From Bacteroidales bacterium (GTDB lineage Bacteria; Bacteroidota; Bacteroidia; Bacteroidales; PXBB01), in the NCBI GenBank assembly GCA_028698995.1, contig JAQVVM010000022.1:1-36428 (forward strand): a stretch of 36,428 nucleotides of DNA, in the 5' to 3' direction. Every line of letters starts with the position of its first letter. Position 1 is the stretch's first letter. The notes under the pieces were generated by a model, which was given only the letters and a program-made list of their open reading frames with translations, was not told the DNA's origin and did not search any database. Positions 5,627-23,215 of the stretch are shown here, one piece after another. A program made the position numbers and the translations under genes.

Positions 5627-6331
5627 ATGAAAAATTTAAAAAAAATATTTCTTAAAAAGTACTTTAAAAATAAGACTATCCATATAATTTTTTTAATCTA
5701 TTTTTTAATAATTGTTTCTTGCTTATTTTGTGTGTTACAAGTAAAAAATTATTATGAAATTGATCCAAAGGGGAATTTGAATCTATTACTTGGATTAATT
5801 AGTGTGGCAACATCCATTTTTACATTAATTATTGCTTATTATCTTTTTGATAAGTTTGGTTTAAAAAGTCAATATAAACAAAAGCAGCTTGATAGCATAA
5901 TTAAATTGTACGATAAAATTTTCGGATTTAAATTGATAATGTCAAGTTCAGATAAAATACTTATTTACTTTCCTTTGATCTCAAACAATCCTTCTAAAAA
6001 ACAAGAGTACAACAGATTAAAGAATGAAAAACTATATTTTAGTATAGATTATTATAAGTATATTAAAGATTATCTAGATATTAGTGAATTTAATACACCT
6101 TCAAATATTAAAAAGAAACTTGAAGAAATTATGCTTCCTGATAGAAACAAAGGATATGAAAAAATTCAAGATGGCCTTATTATTAATATCAAGGGTAATC
6201 AGAGTGAGCAAAAATATTTTTATTTAGTAGACGCATGGGAAACATTAGAAAAATATGATGCTTTATGGTGTGAATTAATCAACATGGTCAAAAGTTGGTT
6301 AGCTGATAATAATATTAATTTGAATAAATAG
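5627..6331 (+). CDS. Unrecognised two-TM membrane protein
   Basis: A 234-residue protein that I do not recognise. It has a basic N terminus (many Lys), a first membrane segment at about 18-40 (HIIFLIYFLIIVSCLF) and a second at about 52-72 (LLLGLISVATSIFTLIIAYY), then a soluble, Lys/Tyr/Ile-rich domain of about 160 residues that is probably cytoplasmic. There are no catalytic motifs. It starts 5 nt after the preceding gene and is likely cotranscribed with it. It is strikingly AT-rich even for this window, with AAA/AAT/ATT codons dominating, which suggests horizontal acquisition. A role alongside the upstream surface protein, or as an accessory or defence protein, is possible but unsupported. 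Confidence 0.5.
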   Translation: MKNLKKIFLKKYFKNKTIHIIFLIYFLIIVSCLFCVLQVKNYYEIDPKGNLNLLLGLISVATSIFTLIIAYYLFDKFGLKSQYKQKQLDSIIKLYDKIFGFKLIMSSSDKILIYFPLISNNPSKKQEYNRLKNEKLYFSIDYYKYIKDYLDISEFNTPSNIKKKLEEIMLPDRNKGYEKIQDGLIINIKGNQSEQKYFYLVDAWETLEKYDALWCELINMVKSWLADNNINLNK

Positions 6332-6566
6332 AACCAATTAAGTATTCCTAGAAAAATCACACAATGAGCAACATTAAATAATATAATGCAAGCAAATAAG
6401 AAGTGTTTAGAATGAGCTAGCGAAAAAATGTTATGGCTCGCGTAGTTAGTCTCTGAAAGGTTTTGGGAGATTAATAATCCAGAGTAAGTAACAGAGAAGT
6501 GTTAAGAAGGTAAAGAAGTAAAATAAACTGAAGAAATAGAAAAATGAAGAAAAAATAAAATAATAT
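6332..6566. other. AT-rich spacer before the repeat cluster
   Basis: I see no gene here. The sequence is low in complexity toward its 3' end (6500-6566, poly-purine). The purine-rich stretch just before 6567 (ATGAAGAAAAAATAA-like) loosely resembles the left flank of repeat copies 2 and 4, so the first repeat may begin somewhat earlier than annotated. Confidence 0.4.
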
Positions 6567-6687
6567 GCCACCACACCCCCTCAATCCCCTTAAGGGGAAG
6601 ACAACCCGCACTGAATTATAGAATTGGGCAGGGCCCCCCTTCCGATAGTTATCGGAAAGGGGGCAGGGGGTAGCGAGGGCAAAAGAA
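6567..6687 (+). repeat. Palindromic intergenic repeat, copy 1
   Basis: A GC-rich element of about 120 bp, in contrast to its AT-rich surroundings. It starts GCCACCACACCCC and ends GGGGGTAGCGAGGGCAAAAGAA. It contains the hairpins CCCCTTAAGGGG (6587-6598) and TTCCGATAGTTATCGGAA (6640-6657), plus a GCACTGAATTATAGAATTG core. The ends form an imperfect inverted repeat (GCCACC versus GGGTAGC). The next start codon lies 8 nt downstream. It is related to the copies at 7402, 7925 and 8015. Confidence 0.85.
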
Positions 6688-6695
6688 CCTAAAAA

Positions 6696-6947
6696 ATGAA
6701 AAAAACAAAACCACAAGCAACAGATAAGGTGTCGGAACCACTGGTTTCATATCAACATAGTGATGGACAATTAATAGGCAGAGATATCATAATATCTTCA
6801 CCTGAGGTGCAGGAAGAGGCTAATTACTTATATTGGTTAAGCCTGACACCCCGACAAAGACTTGAGTTGCATTATAAAATGGCATCAGTTTTTTGGCAGG
6901 ATGCCTTGTTGAAGAAGAAAATAAACAGAAAAATCATTATCAAATGA
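6696..6947 (+). CDS. Small protein upstream of nucleotidyltransferase, possible antitoxin-like partner
   Basis: An 83-residue protein. Its central part (about 46-65, YLYWLSLTPRQRLELHYKM) resembles short proteins often encoded directly ahead of AbiEii/DUF6036-type nucleotidyltransferases (pattern WLSxTPxxRLE). The C terminus is strongly basic (KKKINRKIIIK). Its stop codon overlaps the next start (ATGA at 6944-6947), so translation of the pair is probably coupled. The start at 6696 follows repeat copy 1 by 8 nt. The two-gene layout suggests a toxin-antitoxin or nucleotidyltransferase/accessory pair; assignment of antitoxin function is inference. Confidence 0.65.
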   Translation: MKKTKPQATDKVSEPLVSYQHSDGQLIGRDIIISSPEVQEEANYLYWLSLTPRQRLELHYKMASVFWQDALLKKKINRKIIIK

Positions 6948-7423
6948 ATATTTTATTTGAATCACATAAAGAGTTCTTAAGAGAGCTATGTAAGGGAAAT
7001 GTAAATTTTATTCTTGTAGGCGGATATGCACTTATTTATCATGGATATGTCAGAGGTACGGGAGATATGGATATTTGGCTGGAACCTGATAATGAGAACA
7101 AAATCAAGGTGCTTTCAATACTAGAAAAGCTGAAGTTTTCAAAAGTATCTATTAATAAACTCAGCAAACTTGATTTTAAAGAAATGGTAGCATTTCATTT
7201 TGGTGATCCTCCTGAGAAAATTGATTTTTTAACCAAACTTTCCGGAATTCAATTTAAAGAAGCTTATAAGAATTGCAATTATTTAGATTTAGATAATCAT
7301 AAAATCCCAATCCTTCGGTTGGAGGACTTAATAACTAACAAGCTTATGAGTAACAGGATAAAAGATATGGCAGACGTTGAAGAATTAAAAAAAATATACC
7401 GTATGAAAAGAAATGAAAAATAA
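6944..7423 (+). CDS. MNT-fold nucleotidyltransferase, DUF6036/AbiEii-like
   Basis: A 159-residue protein of the DNA polymerase beta-like nucleotidyltransferase superfamily. Visible motifs are GGYALIYHG at residues 26-34, then R37-G-T-G-D41-M-D43, giving the two metal-binding aspartates, and a third acidic residue at D94 in EKIDFL. A C-terminal LEDLITNKLMSNRIKDMADVEELKK segment is typical of these minimal enzymes. Members transfer nucleotides to tRNA or protein targets and often act as toxins or modifiers. The ATG at 6944 is preferred over an upstream in-frame codon because it overlaps the stop of the preceding gene (ATGA) and begins at the family's usual distance before the GG motif. The last codons (MKRNEK-stop) come from the left flank of repeat copy 2. 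Confidence 0.85.
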   Translation: MNILFESHKEFLRELCKGNVNFILVGGYALIYHGYVRGTGDMDIWLEPDNENKIKVLSILEKLKFSKVSINKLSKLDFKEMVAFHFGDPPEKIDFLTKLSGIQFKEAYKNCNYLDLDNHKIPILRLEDLITNKLMSNRIKDMADVEELKKIYRMKRNEK

Positions 7424-7515
7424 TGCCACCGCACACCCCTCTATCCCCTTAAGGGGAAGCCCACCCGCACTGAATAAGAGAAGTGTGCAGGCAGGGGGTA
7501 GCCAAGGCAAAAGAA
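7402..7515 (+). repeat. Palindromic intergenic repeat, copy 2
   Basis: It starts in the end of the nucleotidyltransferase gene with TATGAAA..AAGAAATGAAAAATAA, shared with copy 4, then GCCACCGCACACCCCTCT, the hairpin CCCCTTAAGGGG (7445-7456), GCACTGAATAAGAGAAGTG, and ends GGGGGTAGCCAAGGCAAAAGAA. It lacks the TTCCGATAGTTATCGGAA hairpin present in copies 1 and 4, so hairpin modules have been gained or lost between copies. Confidence 0.85.
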
Positions 7516-7528
7516 TATTGTTCAAAAG

Positions 7529-7954
7529 ATGACAAGACTTAATAATACAATAGAAAAATCAATGTTTTACGGTGCTAAACCAGATATCTTTGAAAAAGCT
7601 CGTTTGTTAAGATTTAATATGACAAAGGAAGAAAAGGTTTTATGGAGTATTTTAAGGAATAATAAGATGTTGGGTTTGCGTTTTAAAAGGCAACATCCTA
7701 TTTATCGGTTTATTGCTGATTTCTATTGCCATAAAATTAAGCTTGTTATAGAAGCTGATGGAAAAACACATTTGAAAGATGAAAACAAGGAATATGATAC
7801 CAACAGAAACTGCGAGATGGAAAAATTTGGAATTACTGTTCTACGTTTTGAAAATGAGGAAATAAATGATAAGCTAGAAAATATTAAATTATGCATTGAA
7901 AATAAATGTAAAGAATTGTTAATGGCCAACGCGCACCCCTCTCTCACTGAATAA
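7529..7954 (+). CDS. DUF559 family Vsr-like endonuclease domain protein
   Basis: A 141-residue protein of the DUF559 family (PD-(D/E)xK/Vsr-like fold). Diagnostic features are the helix EKARLLRFNMTKEEKVLWSIL (22-42), LGLRFKRQHPI (48-58), and the catalytic core F61-IAD64-FYC...KLVIE75-A-D77-GKTH81, followed by DTNRNCEMEKFGITVLRFEN. D64, E75 and D77 are the likely metal ligands. ATG at 7529 is used; ATG at 7562 (residue 12, MFYGAKP) is an alternative start that also fits the family. The final nine residues (ANAHPSLTE) are encoded by repeat copy 3, so the natural C terminus has been replaced or extended by the repeat. The gene sits exactly between repeat copies 2 and 3. Cellular role unproven; mobility or repair are both possible. 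Confidence 0.88.
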   Translation: MTRLNNTIEKSMFYGAKPDIFEKARLLRFNMTKEEKVLWSILRNNKMLGLRFKRQHPIYRFIADFYCHKIKLVIEADGKTHLKDENKEYDTNRNCEMEKFGITVLRFENEEINDKLENIKLCIENKCKELLMANAHPSLTE

Positions 7955-8007
7955 GAGAAGTGGGCAAGCACCCCTTCAGGGGGTAGGGGGTAGCAAAGGC
8001 AAAAGAA
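7925..8007 (+). repeat. Palindromic intergenic repeat, copy 3
   Basis: The left end (GCCAACGCGCACCCCTCT) lies inside the DUF559 reading frame and supplies its stop codon. Then come ACTGAATAAGAGAAGTGGGC, the hairpin CCCCTTCAGGGG (7971-7982) and the right end GGGGGTAGCAAAGGCAAAAGAA. The terminal 15 bases form an imperfect inverted repeat (11 of 15 matching by eye). It is only 7 bp from copy 4 when the purine-rich flank of copy 4 is counted. Confidence 0.85.
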
Positions 8008-8014
8008 AACGAAT

Positions 8015-8130
8015 TATGAAATAAAAGAAATGAAAAATAAAGCCACCGCACACCCCTCTCTCGCACTGAATAAGAGAAGTGGGCAAGCACCCCTTCCGAT
8101 AGTTATCGGAAAGGTGGTAGCAAAGGCAAA
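8015..8130 (+). repeat. Palindromic intergenic repeat, copy 4
   Basis: It shares with copy 2 the left flank TATGAAA..AAGAAATGAAAAATAA and the start GCCACCGCACACCCCTCT. It then has GCACTGAATAAGAGAAGTGGGC, the hairpin TTCCGATAGTTATCGGAA (8095-8112) as in copy 1, and GGTGGTAGCAAAGGCAAA at the right end. It lies 15 nt before the lipoprotein start and must contain or adjoin the promoter of the following operon. Confidence 0.85.
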
Positions 8131-8145
8131 AAAAATAAAAACCGA

Positions 8146-9123
8146 ATGAAAAACATTTTATCCATAGTAAGCATATCTGTTATTATTTTGTCATTACTTC
8201 TAATCATATCCTGTCAAAAACCTGAACGTATAAATAAAATTTACACAGATTCTGTGCAATTAATTGGAACTTCAGTAATTGCAAAGGGTAAAATAATTGA
8301 TATTTCTGAAAGCAGCATTGATGAATATGGTTTCTGCATTGCAATTCATGATGATCCTAGTGTTAATGATTCAAAAGTATCAATAAATGAATCATGCAAA
8401 ATTGGCAGCTTTTCTTCTCCCATTAAAAACCTCATTCCTTATACTACTTATTTTATCCGTTCTTTTTTATTTGATGGTGCAAATTTTATTTATGGAAACA
8501 CCCTGTCTTTTTCAATTAATTCTCTAGATAGTATTCACATAATTACTGCAATTCCTCAAATACTGTCAACTTCATGCGTAAATGTCAGTGGCAGTATTAT
8601 GGGTATAAGTTCTGTCCCTTTACAGGATTTTGGACATTGCTGGTCAACAGAACCGGGACCGACTATTGCCAATAACAAAACATCCTATGGATTTACAGAA
8701 AAAGACACTACTTTCAGCAGCACAATGTACAATCTGAACCTTTCAACACCCTATTATGTAAGGACTTATGCCATAACCAACGGCACTAATGTGCTTTATG
8801 GTAATGAAACCACTTTTATGATACCCGATTTAATCGTGTTTACTGATACATTTTCTTTCAATGGATTGACAGATGTTATACTTACAGGCGAAATTGTGCA
8901 ATTGGGTGTTAATCCGGTAACAGACTATGGTTTTTGTTGGTCATACACCAGCCCTACGCCAACGATAAATGATAACACAGTGTCTTTAGGAAGCACACAA
9001 ACCACAGGACCGTACAACGACAGTATGTCAATAACCAATGGTGTTACCTATTATTTCAGGGCTTTTGCCACCGATGGCATACATGTTAAATATGGGTCAG
9101 TGAAAAACTTTACTAAACAATAA
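8146..9123 (+). CDS. Lipoprotein with three fibronectin-III-like repeats
   Basis: A 325-residue predicted lipoprotein. The signal segment is at 4-22 and the lipobox LIISC has Cys23. Three repeats of about 95 residues follow (roughly 35-123, 131-225, 232-323). Each has a DxxGFCxxxxxxPT turn near its start (DEYGFC, QDFGHC, TDYGFC) and a TxYYVRxYAxxxGxxxYG strand pair near its end. This arrangement is common in Bacteroidota surface proteins with FN3-like folds and suggests a binding or spacer role outside the cell. No enzyme motif is visible. It is the first gene of a tight operon: the next gene starts 2 nt after its stop. Confidence 0.75.
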   Translation: MKNILSIVSISVIILSLLLIISCQKPERINKIYTDSVQLIGTSVIAKGKIIDISESSIDEYGFCIAIHDDPSVNDSKVSINESCKIGSFSSPIKNLIPYTTYFIRSFLFDGANFIYGNTLSFSINSLDSIHIITAIPQILSTSCVNVSGSIMGISSVPLQDFGHCWSTEPGPTIANNKTSYGFTEKDTTFSSTMYNLNLSTPYYVRTYAITNGTNVLYGNETTFMIPDLIVFTDTFSFNGLTDVILTGEIVQLGVNPVTDYGFCWSYTSPTPTINDNTVSLGSTQTTGPYNDSMSITNGVTYYFRAFATDGIHVKYGSVKNFTKQ

Positions 9124-9125
9124 AG

Positions 9126-9371
9126 ATGAGCAATATAAAACTTTTTAAAAATAAACAAGTACTTTCTGTTCGGGTTGAAGAAGAACAGAAATGGTATTTT
9201 GTTGTAGAAGATGTTGTTTCAAATCTAACCGATAGCAAAGACTCTAAACTGTATATCAAGCACATGCGCCAAAGAGATAGAGTGCTTGCCAAAGGGCTAC
9301 CCGAAGACTGGATTGAGAAAAGAATGCTCAGCATTGCCATCAGAGAAGAACTGACAGATAAAAAAAATTAA
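9126..9371 (+). pseudogene. Internally deleted BRO-N/antirepressor-like protein (81 aa)
   Basis: Residues 1-56 match the BRO N-terminal domain of phage antirepressor-like proteins (MSNIKLF.., KWYFVVEDVVSNLTDSKD, YIKHMRQRDRVLAKG). The frame then passes directly into LPEDWIEKRMLSIAIREELTD (57-77), a segment that in full-length relatives lies near the far end of the domain, after another AKG(Y/L)P. The intervening ~100 residues are missing and the C-terminal domain is cut off after ELTD. An in-frame deletion between two AKG-coding sites would explain this. The ORF is nevertheless intact and packed with 2-nt gaps on both sides in the operon, so it may still be translated. Whether it retains a function is unclear. 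Confidence 0.7.
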
Positions 9372-9373
9372 AT

Positions 9374-11713
9374 ATGCCAAAATCAATTAAAAAATTCTTT
9401 GTTTCTCTTTTAATAGTTGCAATTGTCATACTCTCTCATGTCTTTGTCAAAGCACAATCACATGAGTTTGCCCGAATTGAGAATGTCAATTTTCATTTCA
9501 ATGACTCAACAGTTGAAATTATTTACGATTTGCTAAGTCCAAATACAAATACATCCTATATCATTGATATATTTGTTTACAAAAACCCATCTGAATTGCT
9601 TATTACGTCTAGTGTTTCGGGTGATATTGGAAAAGAAGTTTACAGTGGTATAGGAAAAAGGCTTGTCTGGGATGCCCGTAACGATGGTTTGTTTTTAAAT
9701 GATGAAGTTTTTGTGGAAATCAGAGCTACGCCTGTGCTTGTAATATCTCAAGGTAGTCATTTGCTCAAATCCTTGGTGGTACCAGGCTGGGGAGACTACA
9801 GACTGGATAACCGCAAAACCCATTTTATTAAAGGGCTGGCTTCTTATGGTTCTGTAGCTGCTGCCATATATTTTAACAGCAAATCCGTTGAAAGCTACAA
9901 CAATTATAAAACATCTTATGAGATTACTCAAAGCGATAAATTTTTTCAGGATGCACAAACACAAAGAAATTTTTCAATAGCAACAACGGCCATTGCTATC
10001 GGATTTTGGACAGCCGATTTGTATAGGGTATATCGAAGATGTCAGAAACTGAAAACAATTGACATAACACCATCTCTCAGCAATTTTTATCATAATAAAA
10101 GTACGCAATTTGTGTCACAAAGAAGTCGCGTCATGCACATTGATACAAGAACGCCCTATCAAATAGCCATGGCTAACGGTGACATAGCCTTTGACCAAAG
10201 GAGGTATAATCAGGCACTAAATTTATACAATGAAGCGCTTATAAACAAAGAGGAAGATACAGCAGCAAAAGCAAGTATTCTGAAAACCGAAGAAATAATC
10301 GCTGAATTAAAGAGAATTGATGACAATTACAATAATCATAAATCAATTGCAGATTCACTGTTTTCTGTAAGAGATTTCACAACAGCAATTACTTATTATG
10401 AATCCATGCAAACCATAAAAACGGGAGAAACTTATCCGGCTTCCAAAATCCGACAGGCTCATGATTCAATTAACATGGTTAACAAAAGAATTCAATATAA
10501 TGAACTTATTGCAATGGGAGATAGCCTGTTCAACCTGAATAAATGGAATGAGTCTATCCCCGTATATAATCAAGCCCTTAATGTTTTCCCAGAGTTGCCT
10601 TATGCACCCGAAATGATAAACAAAGCAAATAAAAACATTATAGATGAAGAATACAGATTATTAGTAAGGCAAGCAGATGATTTTTTAAGAAGAGGTGATT
10701 TAGTTAAAGCTTCAGAAACCTATAAAGAGGCCATGGCTTATAAGCCTCAAGAAGCATATCCGCAAAATAAAATTGATGAAATTAACAACCGCCTTGAACA
10801 AATTGAACTTCAAAGAATAGACAGGGAATATAATGCCCTGTTATTAAATGCTAAAACCCTATTCAATCAGGGCAAATATGAAGAAGCAAAGTTAATTTTC
10901 GAAAATGCACATCGAATTAAAGCAAATAACAATGAAATAAATCAATGGATTACAAAATGTGAAAATAAAATTTACGAGCGTCAGCAAAGAGAGAATGACC
11001 GCAGATACAGGGAATTAATTATTAATGCAGACAGGGCAATGGAAAATAGAGAATATAACCATGCAAAGTCATTGTATCAAGAAGCAATCGTTCTGAAACC
11101 AAATGAAATATATCCAAGTGAAAAAATACGACAGATTGAATTGATGATAGCCTCAAATGATTTTTCAATTTTATTTCAACTCTGTAATCCTGCTGTTTTT
11201 ATAATTTATGCTGAAAACAACAGAAATATTTCGCAGGGCAGTGGGTTTTTTATCAACAGCAATGGAACAGCTGTCAGCAATTATCATATTTTTGAAGGTA
11301 TGCATATTAATAAAACCAAAATTGAAACAATAGATGGTAGAAGCTATACAATTGAACATGTCTTGGATAAAAATGAAGAGCAAGATTGGATTATTTTCAA
11401 AGTCAAAAAATCTAATAATATAAGTTTCCCTTATTTGTCAATAGCAACTGCTGAGTCTGAAGTAGGTGAATCTGTATTCATTATTAGTAGTCCTGAGGGA
11501 TTAAGTAATACCTTCTCTGATGGTAAAGTTTCAGCATATAGGGAAGATAAAAATTTCATTCAAACAAATACTCCAATAACGCATGGAAGCAGTGGTGGCC
11601 CTTTGTTGAATATGAAAGGTGAAGTAATCGGAATAGCCACAATGGGTCTTCAATCCGGCAATCTTTTCTTTGCCATTAACATTCGGCTGTTACGACTTGA
11701 ACGTTACAGGTAA
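9374..11713 (+). CDS. Exported TPR protein with C-terminal trypsin-like protease domain
   Basis: A 779-residue exported protein. It has a signal peptide (1-28, VKAQ), then a beta domain at about 35-120 with the Bacteroidota pattern YDL..., SGDIG..V, KRLVWDARNDG, EVFVEIRA. Next is a segment with two hydrophobic stretches (150-167 and 200-217) around VPGWGDYRLDNRKTHFIKG. TPR-like repeats run from about 262 to 595, with recurrent YP..KI signatures (354-359, 462-467, 580-585). A trypsin/HtrA-like domain covers 603-770, with catalytic residues H638 (SNYHIFEG), D671 (EQDWIIF) and S740 (HGSSGGPL). All three are present, so it should be active. It is the last gene of the operon with the FN3-like lipoprotein and BRO-N remnant. 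The substrate is unknown; an envelope quality-control or processing role is plausible. Confidence 0.82.
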   Translation: MPKSIKKFFVSLLIVAIVILSHVFVKAQSHEFARIENVNFHFNDSTVEIIYDLLSPNTNTSYIIDIFVYKNPSELLITSSVSGDIGKEVYSGIGKRLVWDARNDGLFLNDEVFVEIRATPVLVISQGSHLLKSLVVPGWGDYRLDNRKTHFIKGLASYGSVAAAIYFNSKSVESYNNYKTSYEITQSDKFFQDAQTQRNFSIATTAIAIGFWTADLYRVYRRCQKLKTIDITPSLSNFYHNKSTQFVSQRSRVMHIDTRTPYQIAMANGDIAFDQRRYNQALNLYNEALINKEEDTAAKASILKTEEIIAELKRIDDNYNNHKSIADSLFSVRDFTTAITYYESMQTIKTGETYPASKIRQAHDSINMVNKRIQYNELIAMGDSLFNLNKWNESIPVYNQALNVFPELPYAPEMINKANKNIIDEEYRLLVRQADDFLRRGDLVKASETYKEAMAYKPQEAYPQNKIDEINNRLEQIELQRIDREYNALLLNAKTLFNQGKYEEAKLIFENAHRIKANNNEINQWITKCENKIYERQQRENDRRYRELIINADRAMENREYNHAKSLYQEAIVLKPNEIYPSEKIRQIELMIASNDFSILFQLCNPAVFIIYAENNRNISQGSGFFINSNGTAVSNYHIFEGMHINKTKIETIDGRSYTIEHVLDKNEEQDWIIFKVKKSNNISFPYLSIATAESEVGESVFIISSPEGLSNTFSDGKVSAYREDKNFIQTNTPITHGSSGGPLLNMKGEVIGIATMGLQSGNLFFAINIRLLRLERYR

Positions 11714-11744
11714 ATTTGCTATTTATCAGGTTTAATTCTTATCC

Positions 11745-12350
11745 CTACTTCACTTTCTTAATCCCAGCCATTATTTCCTTCACCGATTTCTTTTTTTCTT
11801 CTCTTCTTCCAGACACACTTTGTTTGACGGTTTTTACATCTTCAATAGTATAAAAGGCATTGGGATTATACCTGTTAACTATTTCGATAAAGTGTTTAAG
11901 CTCTTTTCTGCTGACCACAGAAAAAAGTACTTTTACGGGGCCAAGATAACCCTCTCCGTCAACAGAAGTAACAGCAAAGTTCTCACTTCTCAGAAAGTTC
12001 AGAAGTTCTGTTGTATCCTTTTTGGGGACAATACGCACCATCACATTGCCAATAGACATCTTGCTTTCAAGAAAGATTCCGATATAATTTCCCATGGCAT
12101 AACCACCTGCATAAGCTATGTAAGTCATGGGGTTGTCTAAGTGCTGAAAAATCTGACTGACAGCAAGAAGCCAGATAAGAGATTCGAGAAATCCCAAAGC
12201 TGTGGCAAGATTACGGATTCCTTTTGCTACAAACATAAGCCTTAGTGTTCCTATTGACTGGTCGGTTATTCGGGCAAGAAAAATAAGTACAGGTAATATT
12301 GCCCATCTAAAAATTTCAGAATCTGTATTTATTGAGAGTAGTGTTTCCAT
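11745..12350 (-). CDS. UPF0316 membrane protein (DUF5698 plus DUF2179)
   Basis: A 201-residue membrane protein. The N-terminal half contains three hydrophobic segments with the UPF0316 signature: LIFLARITDQSIGTLRLMFVAKG, LGFLESLIWLLAVSQI, YIAYAGGYAMGNYIGIFLE. The C-terminal half is a DUF2179 domain (VRIVPKK...TSVDGEGYLGPVKVLFSVVSRKEL), a ferredoxin-like fold that often occurs in membrane proteins and may bind a small ligand. The tail is basic. ATG at 12350 is chosen over the upstream TTG at 12365, because the latter overlaps the -7 promoter box at 12363-12370. It converges with the protease gene upstream and diverges from the radical SAM gene. The precise function is not known for the family. 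Confidence 0.88.
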   Translation of the reverse strand: METLLSINTDSEIFRWAILPVLIFLARITDQSIGTLRLMFVAKGIRNLATALGFLESLIWLLAVSQIFQHLDNPMTYIAYAGGYAMGNYIGIFLESKMSIGNVMVRIVPKKDTTELLNFLRSENFAVTSVDGEGYLGPVKVLFSVVSRKELKHFIEIVNRYNPNAFYTIEDVKTVKQSVSGRREEKKKSVKEIMAGIKKVK

Positions 12351-22489: not shown

Positions 22490-23215
22490 ATGCAAAAGTT
22501 AAACTTATCACTACTGTTTTCTTTTCTAATGAGTATAAGTTGTTTTTTGGTAAGTGCTCAGGAAGAAAATACTTCAGGATTTAATATTGGTGTTGATTTA
22601 TACAGTCGCTATGTATGGCGTGGGCAGGATTTTGGATCAGCACCAAGCATACAGCCATCATTTGAATTTGCCCACAAAAGTGGTTTCAAATTAGGTTACT
22701 GGGGGGCTTTTAGCACCAACGGAACCTATAATGAAATTGATTTTAAGATAGCTTATGATGTTGCCGGTTTTTCGGTAGAGTTGACAGATTATTTTCTTCC
22801 GGTTTCAGGTGTTCCCATTTTAAAACCAGAAAAGTATTTTAACTTTGACAATGCAACAACCGGACATCTTCTAGAGGGCTCAATAATATGGAATGGAACA
22901 GAAAAAATTCCTGTTTCATTTCTTGCGGGAGCTTATGTATATGGTTGTGATAAAAATGCCACTGGAGCTCAGAATTACTCTGCATATGCTGAAGTAACCT
23001 ACACATTTAGCACTAAAGCAGGAGAAATTCAAACATTTTTAGGGTTTACACCAAAAGATGGGCTTTATGGAAATACAGCAGGAGTTGTAAATGCAGGTGT
23101 GACTGCGGGGAAAACCATTCAGATAACCGACAGTTTCAGTTTACCTGTAACTGCTTCTGTTATTACCAATCCTCAAGCAAATAATATCTATTTTGTACTG
23201 GGTATTTCCTTTTAA
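22490..23215 (+). CDS. Outer-membrane beta-barrel protein, TorF/Gcw_chp-like
   Basis: A 241-residue protein with a signal peptide (1-23, LVSAQ). The mature part consists of alternating amphipathic strands with the motif NIGVDLYSRYVWRGQDFGS near its start, typical of putative porins of the Gcw_chp/TorF type (SxYVWRG). It ends in an aromatic strand (NIYFVLGISF), as outer-membrane barrels do. It lies 5 nt downstream of the T9SS esterase gene and is surely cotranscribed, which suggests the pair handles one extracellular substrate: the esterase releases or modifies it and the barrel may let the product through. The substrate is not known. Confidence 0.75.
   Translation: MQKLNLSLLFSFLMSISCFLVSAQEENTSGFNIGVDLYSRYVWRGQDFGSAPSIQPSFEFAHKSGFKLGYWGAFSTNGTYNEIDFKIAYDVAGFSVELTDYFLPVSGVPILKPEKYFNFDNATTGHLLEGSIIWNGTEKIPVSFLAGAYVYGCDKNATGAQNYSAYAEVTYTFSTKAGEIQTFLGFTPKDGLYGNTAGVVNAGVTAGKTIQITDSFSLPVTASVITNPQANNIYFVLGISF

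Follow-up and report, generated by a model that had tools for sequence, protein, structure and literature searches.

An exported TPR–HtrA-type protease of a Bacteroidales bacterium and its place in a putative receptor-and-protease gene set of the cell envelope

Why would an exported protein carry a TPR array in front of a trypsin-like protease, and what is its relation to the lipoprotein encoded upstream? We addressed this question for a 779-amino-acid protein (P0001) encoded on a 36,428-nucleotide stretch of Bacteroidales DNA (contig JAQVVM010000022.1, positions 1 to 36,428; hereafter the window), which belongs to a 4.47-Mb assembly of 119 contigs (the home genome, G000). An earlier note, made from the sequence alone, had described the chain as unusual and had named the neighbouring FN3-like lipoprotein as its possible substrate or partner.

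Domain layout and the protease domain

The features of the locus are collected in Table 1. We refer to the first ~250 residues, consisting of a signal peptide, an Ig-like beta domain and a helical hairpin, as the N-module. Signal peptides were assigned from sequence, by hydrophobicity and by Q28, which lies at the expected cleavage point and is near-invariant across 14 N-modules; the signal region of the 779-aa protein (residues 1-33) reaches a Kyte-Doolittle maximum of 2.49. An AlphaFold model built from a 7-sequence alignment (mean pLDDT 76, pTM 0.35) places helices at residues 147-180 and 184-227 and the protease at 608-769, with the beta domain and the TPR helices at the limits given in Table 1. 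The modelled domains appear credible but their mutual packing does not, since with so low a pTM it is not to be trusted.

Table 1. Features of the locus (positions in the window)
Feature	Position	Strand	Basis
YQAVVRN secreted protein, P0004	4278-5621	+	relatives upstream of other N-module genes
Small genes inserted between YQAVVRN gene and lipoprotein gene	5627-7954	+	
Membrane protein without family	5627-6331	+	
Nucleotidyltransferase DUF6036	6893-7423	+	
DUF559 protein	7529-7954	+	
FN3-repeat lipoprotein P0002, conserved partner	8146-9123	+	
81-aa ORF between partner and protease genes	9126-9371	+	Bro-like by eye
779-aa N-module/TPR/HtrA-type protease protein, P0001	9374-11713	+	ORF, Pfam, AlphaFold model
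Signal peptide, residues 1-28, VKAQ cleavage point	9374-9457	+	by eye
Ig-like beta domain, residues 34-120 (first N-module half)	9473-9733	+	AlphaFold model
Helical hairpin, residues 147-227 (second N-module half), weakly DUF5683-like	9812-10054	+	Pfam, model, hydrophobicity
Six TPR units and long linking helices, residues 261-592	10154-11149	+	Pfam, motif, model
HtrA-type (S1C) protease domain, residues 595-779	11156-11710	+	Pfam, alignments, fold
Catalytic codon H638	11285-11287	+	
Catalytic codon D671	11384-11386	+	
Catalytic codon S740	11591-11593	+	

Most of the chain as first described was borne out. The signal peptide and the beta domain were recovered, the latter with an Ig-like fold in the model. 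The two hydrophobic segments that had been proposed correspond to the helical hairpin, but they are weakly hydrophobic here, with best 19-residue Kyte-Doolittle means of 0.89 and 0.95 against 0.86 for the protein's own beta-domain control; across the family, values above 1.6 are reached by helix 2 in 31 of 51 modules and by helix 1 in 10 of 52, and by the beta-domain control in 0 of 52. A DUF5683 match in the 779-aa protein (E 3.7e-4) scores under the Pfam cut-off, and membership of that family was rejected for this reason. Several Pfam TPR families match over about residues 267-590; six units are seen both by eye and in the model, although the exact YPxxKI motif that was said to mark them occurs at three sites only (354, 462 and 580).

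The protease domain is intact, as had been claimed. Pfam Trypsin_2 matches residues 622-754 above its cut-off (E 6.9e-23), and in two phmmer alignments H638, D671 and S740 coincide with the catalytic residues of the HtrA chains 1l1j and 7sjn; the triad is unchanged in all 7 aligned sequences. Foldseek matches the modelled protease part to HtrA folds (best E 2.8e-14), and VIA superposes it on MucD with Z 24.2 and 2.2 Å over 172 residues. Alignments and model together predict a His-Asp-Ser triad in a chymotrypsin fold, which are the features of an S1C/Trypsin_2 catalytic domain, and support the description of an unusual exported TPR–protease chain. In catalytic fold and triad the protein resembles the HtrA/Deg proteases (DegP, DegS, MucD, HtrA1), but it differs from them in having the N-module and TPRs in front and no PDZ domain: Pfam gave no PDZ match in the 779-aa protein, and the chain stops right behind the protease. 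The absent PDZ, together with a low family score (NCBIfam degP_htrA_DO, 92.1 bits versus a cut-off of 416.2), rules out a plain HtrA/Do orthologue. PADLOC matched the protease domain to RT-Protease_XI (E 4.4e-19), which we take to reflect a shared protease domain only.

One possible role for such a chain is envelope quality control, in which a DegP-like protease would bind its clients through TPRs instead of a PDZ domain and the lipoprotein would be an accessory. TPRs are known client binders, and client binding of this kind would accord with an HtrA-type fold that lacks a PDZ domain. However, the genome encodes other Trypsin_2 proteins (5 above cut-off in all, this one included), and the caspase and retropepsin versions of the same N-module described below look unlike quality control, which leaves this role improbable.

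The N-module and its exchangeable C-terminal halves

A whole-protein search of 60 relatives returned a single full-length counterpart (L029, in G048), with a protease 54% identical to that of the home protein over 187 residues, and several further proteins that match the first 250 residues only. The TPR–trypsin architecture, which the earlier note had proposed as the thing to search for, is indeed rare: in the genomes searched it occurs in G000, G048 and G106, in G556 as a copy truncated close to a contig end, and probably in G028, where it is spread over two contigs. It is not what defines the family, since many N-module relatives carry caspases in its stead; the constant unit is the N-module.

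To describe these relatives we use a set of 56 N-module genes from fetched loci, with a module match at E<1e-28 that starts within the first 100 residues. Half modules, split modules (L135, L138) and C-terminal cases (L152-L157) were left out, and the matches that were not fetched were mainly weaker ones. The set comprises 14 caspase fusions, 4 trypsin-type fusions (one of them, L113, cut short near a contig end), 3 other long proteins and 35 short N-modules, 27 of which have a same-strand caspase gene no more than 3 kb away. Examples of the fused arrangement are L033, L034, L038 and L039, and in L035 and L037 the caspase gene adjoins. His/Cys motifs are intact in 40 of 48 caspase-matching ORFs, the pattern missing the other 8. 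The other long proteins are L109, in which an N-module and TPRs end in a retropepsin-like protease (gag-asp E 2.3e-10; DTG motif), L146, a TPR protein in which no protease is recognised, and L031, which is cut by a contig end. No Peptidase_C14 was found in the home genome. One trypsin–TPR protein (L036) has no N-module.

Exported prokaryotic caspase homologues (Peptidase_C14) are thus found in relatives with the same N-module and partner, whereas the home protein has an unrelated serine protease in that place. In a tree of N-modules the seven TPR proteins fall together (support 84/81, which is not strong) and form, with four members from caspase loci, a group of eleven supported at 100/96. The fewest protease changes on this tree is two, and the aspartyl type may branch either within the serine type or next to it (p-AU 0.438). 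From these comparisons, the N-terminal beta-plus-hairpin module appears to be the constant unit, and the TPR–protease part one exchangeable half that replaces a caspase half. The exchange of one protease class for another suggests proteolysis as such, and not one precise cut, as the output of these proteins. A role of the TPRs as a stalk fits as well as client recruitment, because several caspase-type relatives have Ig-like (CARDB) regions at the place corresponding to the TPRs.

When a profile built from ten N-modules was used, 63 of 393 genomes from the order gave a match at E<=1e-10 and 31 of 395 from the class at E<=1e-6, many half modules being included in both counts. In a sample of the phylum, 2 of 395 genomes gave one at E<=1e-15, and one of these two is the home genome itself. 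Two near relatives (L165, L166) come from groundwater MAGs labelled Bacteroidia/Bacteroidetes. Foldseek found no PDB match to the N-module at E<=0.001; by VIA its beta half resembles Ig-like domains (up to Z 9.0) and its hairpin scores Z 8.8 against ESCRT-III helices, which may reflect a common arrangement alone. Outside the set, L152-L157 are long proteins, otherwise unrelated, with the hairpin half at their C-terminus, and in L156 an FN3-lipoprotein match comes next.

The lipoprotein partner and the surrounding genes

For the present analysis we defined an N-module gene set as the module behind a signal peptide plus an FN3-repeat lipoprotein gene that lies within 3 kb and is read from the same strand. 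The 779-aa protein has both, its lipoprotein gene lying 251 bases upstream. The lipoprotein gene accompanies 38 of the 56 N-module genes; 11 were not judged (less than 2.5 kb on one side, a group that includes L033, with its lipoprotein on the opposite strand), and 7 of the 45 judgeable genes are without it. L144, with a lipoprotein gene about 4 kb away, was left out of the count. By chance, roughly 1 such neighbour would be expected per 100 N-module genes. This estimate derives from a profile of 11 partners, which gave 178 matches in about 87 Mb from 20 genomes picked because they bear N-modules, and the adjacency count derives from a smaller 3-sequence profile.

FN3-repeat proteins are common, with 22 profile matches in the home genome. 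The 15 strongest matches to the lipoprotein profile in the 20 genomes (E<1e-43) nevertheless all adjoin N-module genes, including five from outside the profile (G480:C139, G106:C1, G553, G643:C1063 and G717), and the partner type appears to be largely specific to N-module loci. Across 16 pairs, N-module and lipoprotein distances are correlated (Mantel r 0.65, P 0.0001), a result that shared descent alone can yield. The cysteine that closes the partner's signal segment, and the residues after it, were read by eye; a lipobox pattern matched 18 of 38 partners, some of them at the wrong cysteine. Near the lipid-bearing cysteine, Arg28 is near-invariant among 11 partners and is a candidate docking element.

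Since the pair recurs across genomes, the lipoprotein type is largely specific to these loci and the distances are correlated, the partnership appears real. The same results bear on the idea that the chain is a domain shuffle with no fixed partner and merely incidental neighbours. The rarity of TPR–trypsin versions and the protein L036, which pairs trypsin and TPRs with no N-module, would be in keeping with it, but it is largely disfavoured by the 38 of 45 judgeable loci with a lipoprotein gene as well as by the profile and distance results, and we consider it very improbable. Of the two roles first offered for the lipoprotein, partner is favoured and substrate weakened, because a single lipoprotein family accompanies protease classes that are unrelated to one another, three in all; a partner that docks or serves as a receptor would fit better. 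For the same reason a protease inhibitor was thought unlikely.

The two genes had also been called co-operonic, and this holds in part. Co-transcription is likely, if unproved, since within positions 7900-11900 a pattern scan detected no terminator on the plus strand, and its promoter-like hits are no commoner than in shuffles, but an 81-aa ORF lies between the genes. Flanked by 2-base gaps on each side and matching PADLOC PDC-S13 over residues 2-52 (E 1.7e-19), this ORF is probably an intruder that stands outside the gene set. Further upstream, a YQAVVRN gene lies on the same strand as 11 of the 56 N-module genes, many loci ending before that place, and the YQAVVRN protein of L032 has a phage-tail-fibre-like end.

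Genes resembling toxin-antitoxin or abortive-infection genes lie, by raw count, inside the set at 4 of 9 loci with YQAVVRN, lipoprotein and N-module genes. At the home locus these are the DUF6036 nucleotidyltransferase, the DUF559 gene and the Bro/PDC-S13-like ORF; elsewhere they are HepT plus a nucleotidyltransferase (L032, 9186-9936), putAbiC, a nucleotidyltransferase and HEPN (L104, 2393-4254) and a PtuA-like ATPase (L105, 3632-6162). AbiEi/AbiEii genes lie directly upstream of the N-module gene of L165 (535-1835). Flanking small secreted proteins were also seen, one with a Por_Secre_tail sorting domain (L166, 10234-10719) and two that are alike by eye (L113, 3092-3610; L109, 7216-7782).

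The neighbourhood raises one more alternative, namely that the protein is a maturation or shedding protease that cuts the co-encoded lipoprotein, the upstream tail-fibre-like protein or both, and so controls their display. The conserved gene neighbourhood, the export of the protease and the tail-fibre-like end in L032 would agree with this, but lipoproteins of one family are found with proteases of the cysteine, serine and aspartyl classes, so that keeping a conserved cleavage site would be difficult, and no protease is recognised at some loci, such as L146; on balance we judge it unlikely.

Lectin-like domains, related systems and a possible mechanism

A Fib_succ_major domain, which is lectin-like and described in the available portions of PMC4159848 as a retroelement target, is encoded no more than 4 kb away on the same strand in 10 of 38 N-module/lipoprotein cases. 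In L067 (892-2733) two tandem genes fuse the N-module beta half directly to Fib_succ_major. An RVT_1 search of 12 relatives' genomes listed 19 matches, several being pieces of one gene, and L138 and ten fetched regions were examined. L138 (G457) carries on one strand a stop-broken N-module, a caspase, an FN3 piece and an FN3–Fib_succ_major gene, together with a bAvd protein, a template repeat that overlaps no named gene, and a reverse transcriptase. Of the 21 positions at which its 192-base repeats differ, 20 are adenines in the template, and the variable copy sits at the end of the Fib_succ_major gene. The L172 (G218) protein joins the N-module beta half to an FGE-sulfatase domain, in which the variable repeat lies; all 16 of its repeat differences lie at template adenines, and reverse transcriptase and caspase genes adjoin. 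These two caspase-type relatives thus carry diversity-generating retroelements (L138, 63-2723; L172, 5336-8025) that rewrite a lectin-like partner domain. A 6-kb contig (L175, G019) has a repeat pair at 1017-2888 beside a reverse transcriptase, with 18 of 21 differences at A of one copy, and none of the profiled domains; the eight other fetched reverse-transcriptase regions showed neither a repeat pair nor profiled domains.

At the home locus itself no retroelement was found. When 75 sources including the window were scanned for repeat pairs, L138 was the sole result (L172 was scanned separately); at the thresholds of the script the window gave no template/variable pair. No reverse transcriptase scored above cut-off in the home genome, where the RVT_1 match is sub-cut-off, broken and on another contig, and Pfam found no Fib_succ_major on the home partner. 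Since the partner is without this domain and the genome without such a reverse transcriptase, receptor diversification is unsupported for this locus.

Known systems offer partial parallels. According to the accessible parts of PMC7159879 and PMC8195603, caspase- and trypsin-like domains likewise exchange places in the VMAP/iSTAND and FGS conflict systems, which are linked to lectin-like FGS domains and to retroelements; those systems are NTPase-centred and described as intracellular, whereas the present protein has a signal peptide. Pfam found no vWA, MoxR or STAND domain near the gene in 16 window proteins up to position 23215, and the home locus therefore shows, within the proteins scanned, no MoxR-vWA or STAND core that would place it in VMAP/iSTAND. 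The lectin-like variable end of retroelement-varied Fib_succ_major lipoproteins (PMC4159848) and the tie between caspase and variable protein in cyanobacterial orthocaspase systems (PMC7517822) are, as far as the available text goes, comparable to L138 and L172. Neither the N-module nor an FN3–protease gene set is mentioned in the accessible parts of these two papers, and those of PMC6642488 mention neither caspase nor Fib_succ_major. The available text of a caspase survey (PMC3501461) describes no such gene set and leaves the roles of exported bacterial caspase-like proteins largely open. We did not find the gene set described in the full-text literature, a coverage that mostly excludes subscription papers and preprints.

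These observations suggest a cell-envelope system, so far uncharacterised, that is composed of a receptor and a protease. Tentatively, as a reading that falls somewhat short of an even chance, we regard the 779-aa protein as the protease arm of a conserved Bacteroidota envelope gene set in which a receptor is coupled to an interchangeable protease. The N-module and the lipoprotein would dock with each other, either in the periplasm or at the outer membrane; the lipoprotein would be the sensing part (with a lectin-like end of its own in other relatives), the TPRs, or the Ig-like regions elsewhere, would form a stalk or regulatory scaffold of the protease, and ligand binding would release proteolysis of envelope proteins. 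A receptor or anchor is the reading we prefer, because one lipoprotein could hardly be the specific substrate or inhibitor of cysteine, serine and aspartyl proteases alike. Counting against it are the 7 of 45 judgeable N-modules with no FN3 lipoprotein within 3 kb, the commonness of FN3-repeat proteins and a hairpin that is hardly hydrophobic here; moreover, the retroelement evidence comes from caspase-type loci only, the N-module of L138 being stop-broken and that of L172 a beta half. A fuller version of the receptor reading, doubtful as a whole, holds that a caspase, an HtrA-type or a retropepsin-type protease is brought, as an interchangeable part, to a lipoprotein receptor by one docking module common to all, that the receptor is retroelement-diversified in some cases, and that a phage, a competitor or another outside ligand triggers envelope proteolysis, as an exported parallel to cytosolic caspase/trypsin conflict systems.

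The 779-aa protein is a rare variant, and the gene set is the object of interest. One module that meets three unrelated protease classes and one lipoprotein family offers a testable handle on exported caspase-like proteins and, if the receptor reading is true, the gene set would mirror, on the envelope side, the protease-effector immunity of the cytosol, and in some lineages its receptors would be rewritten by retroelements.
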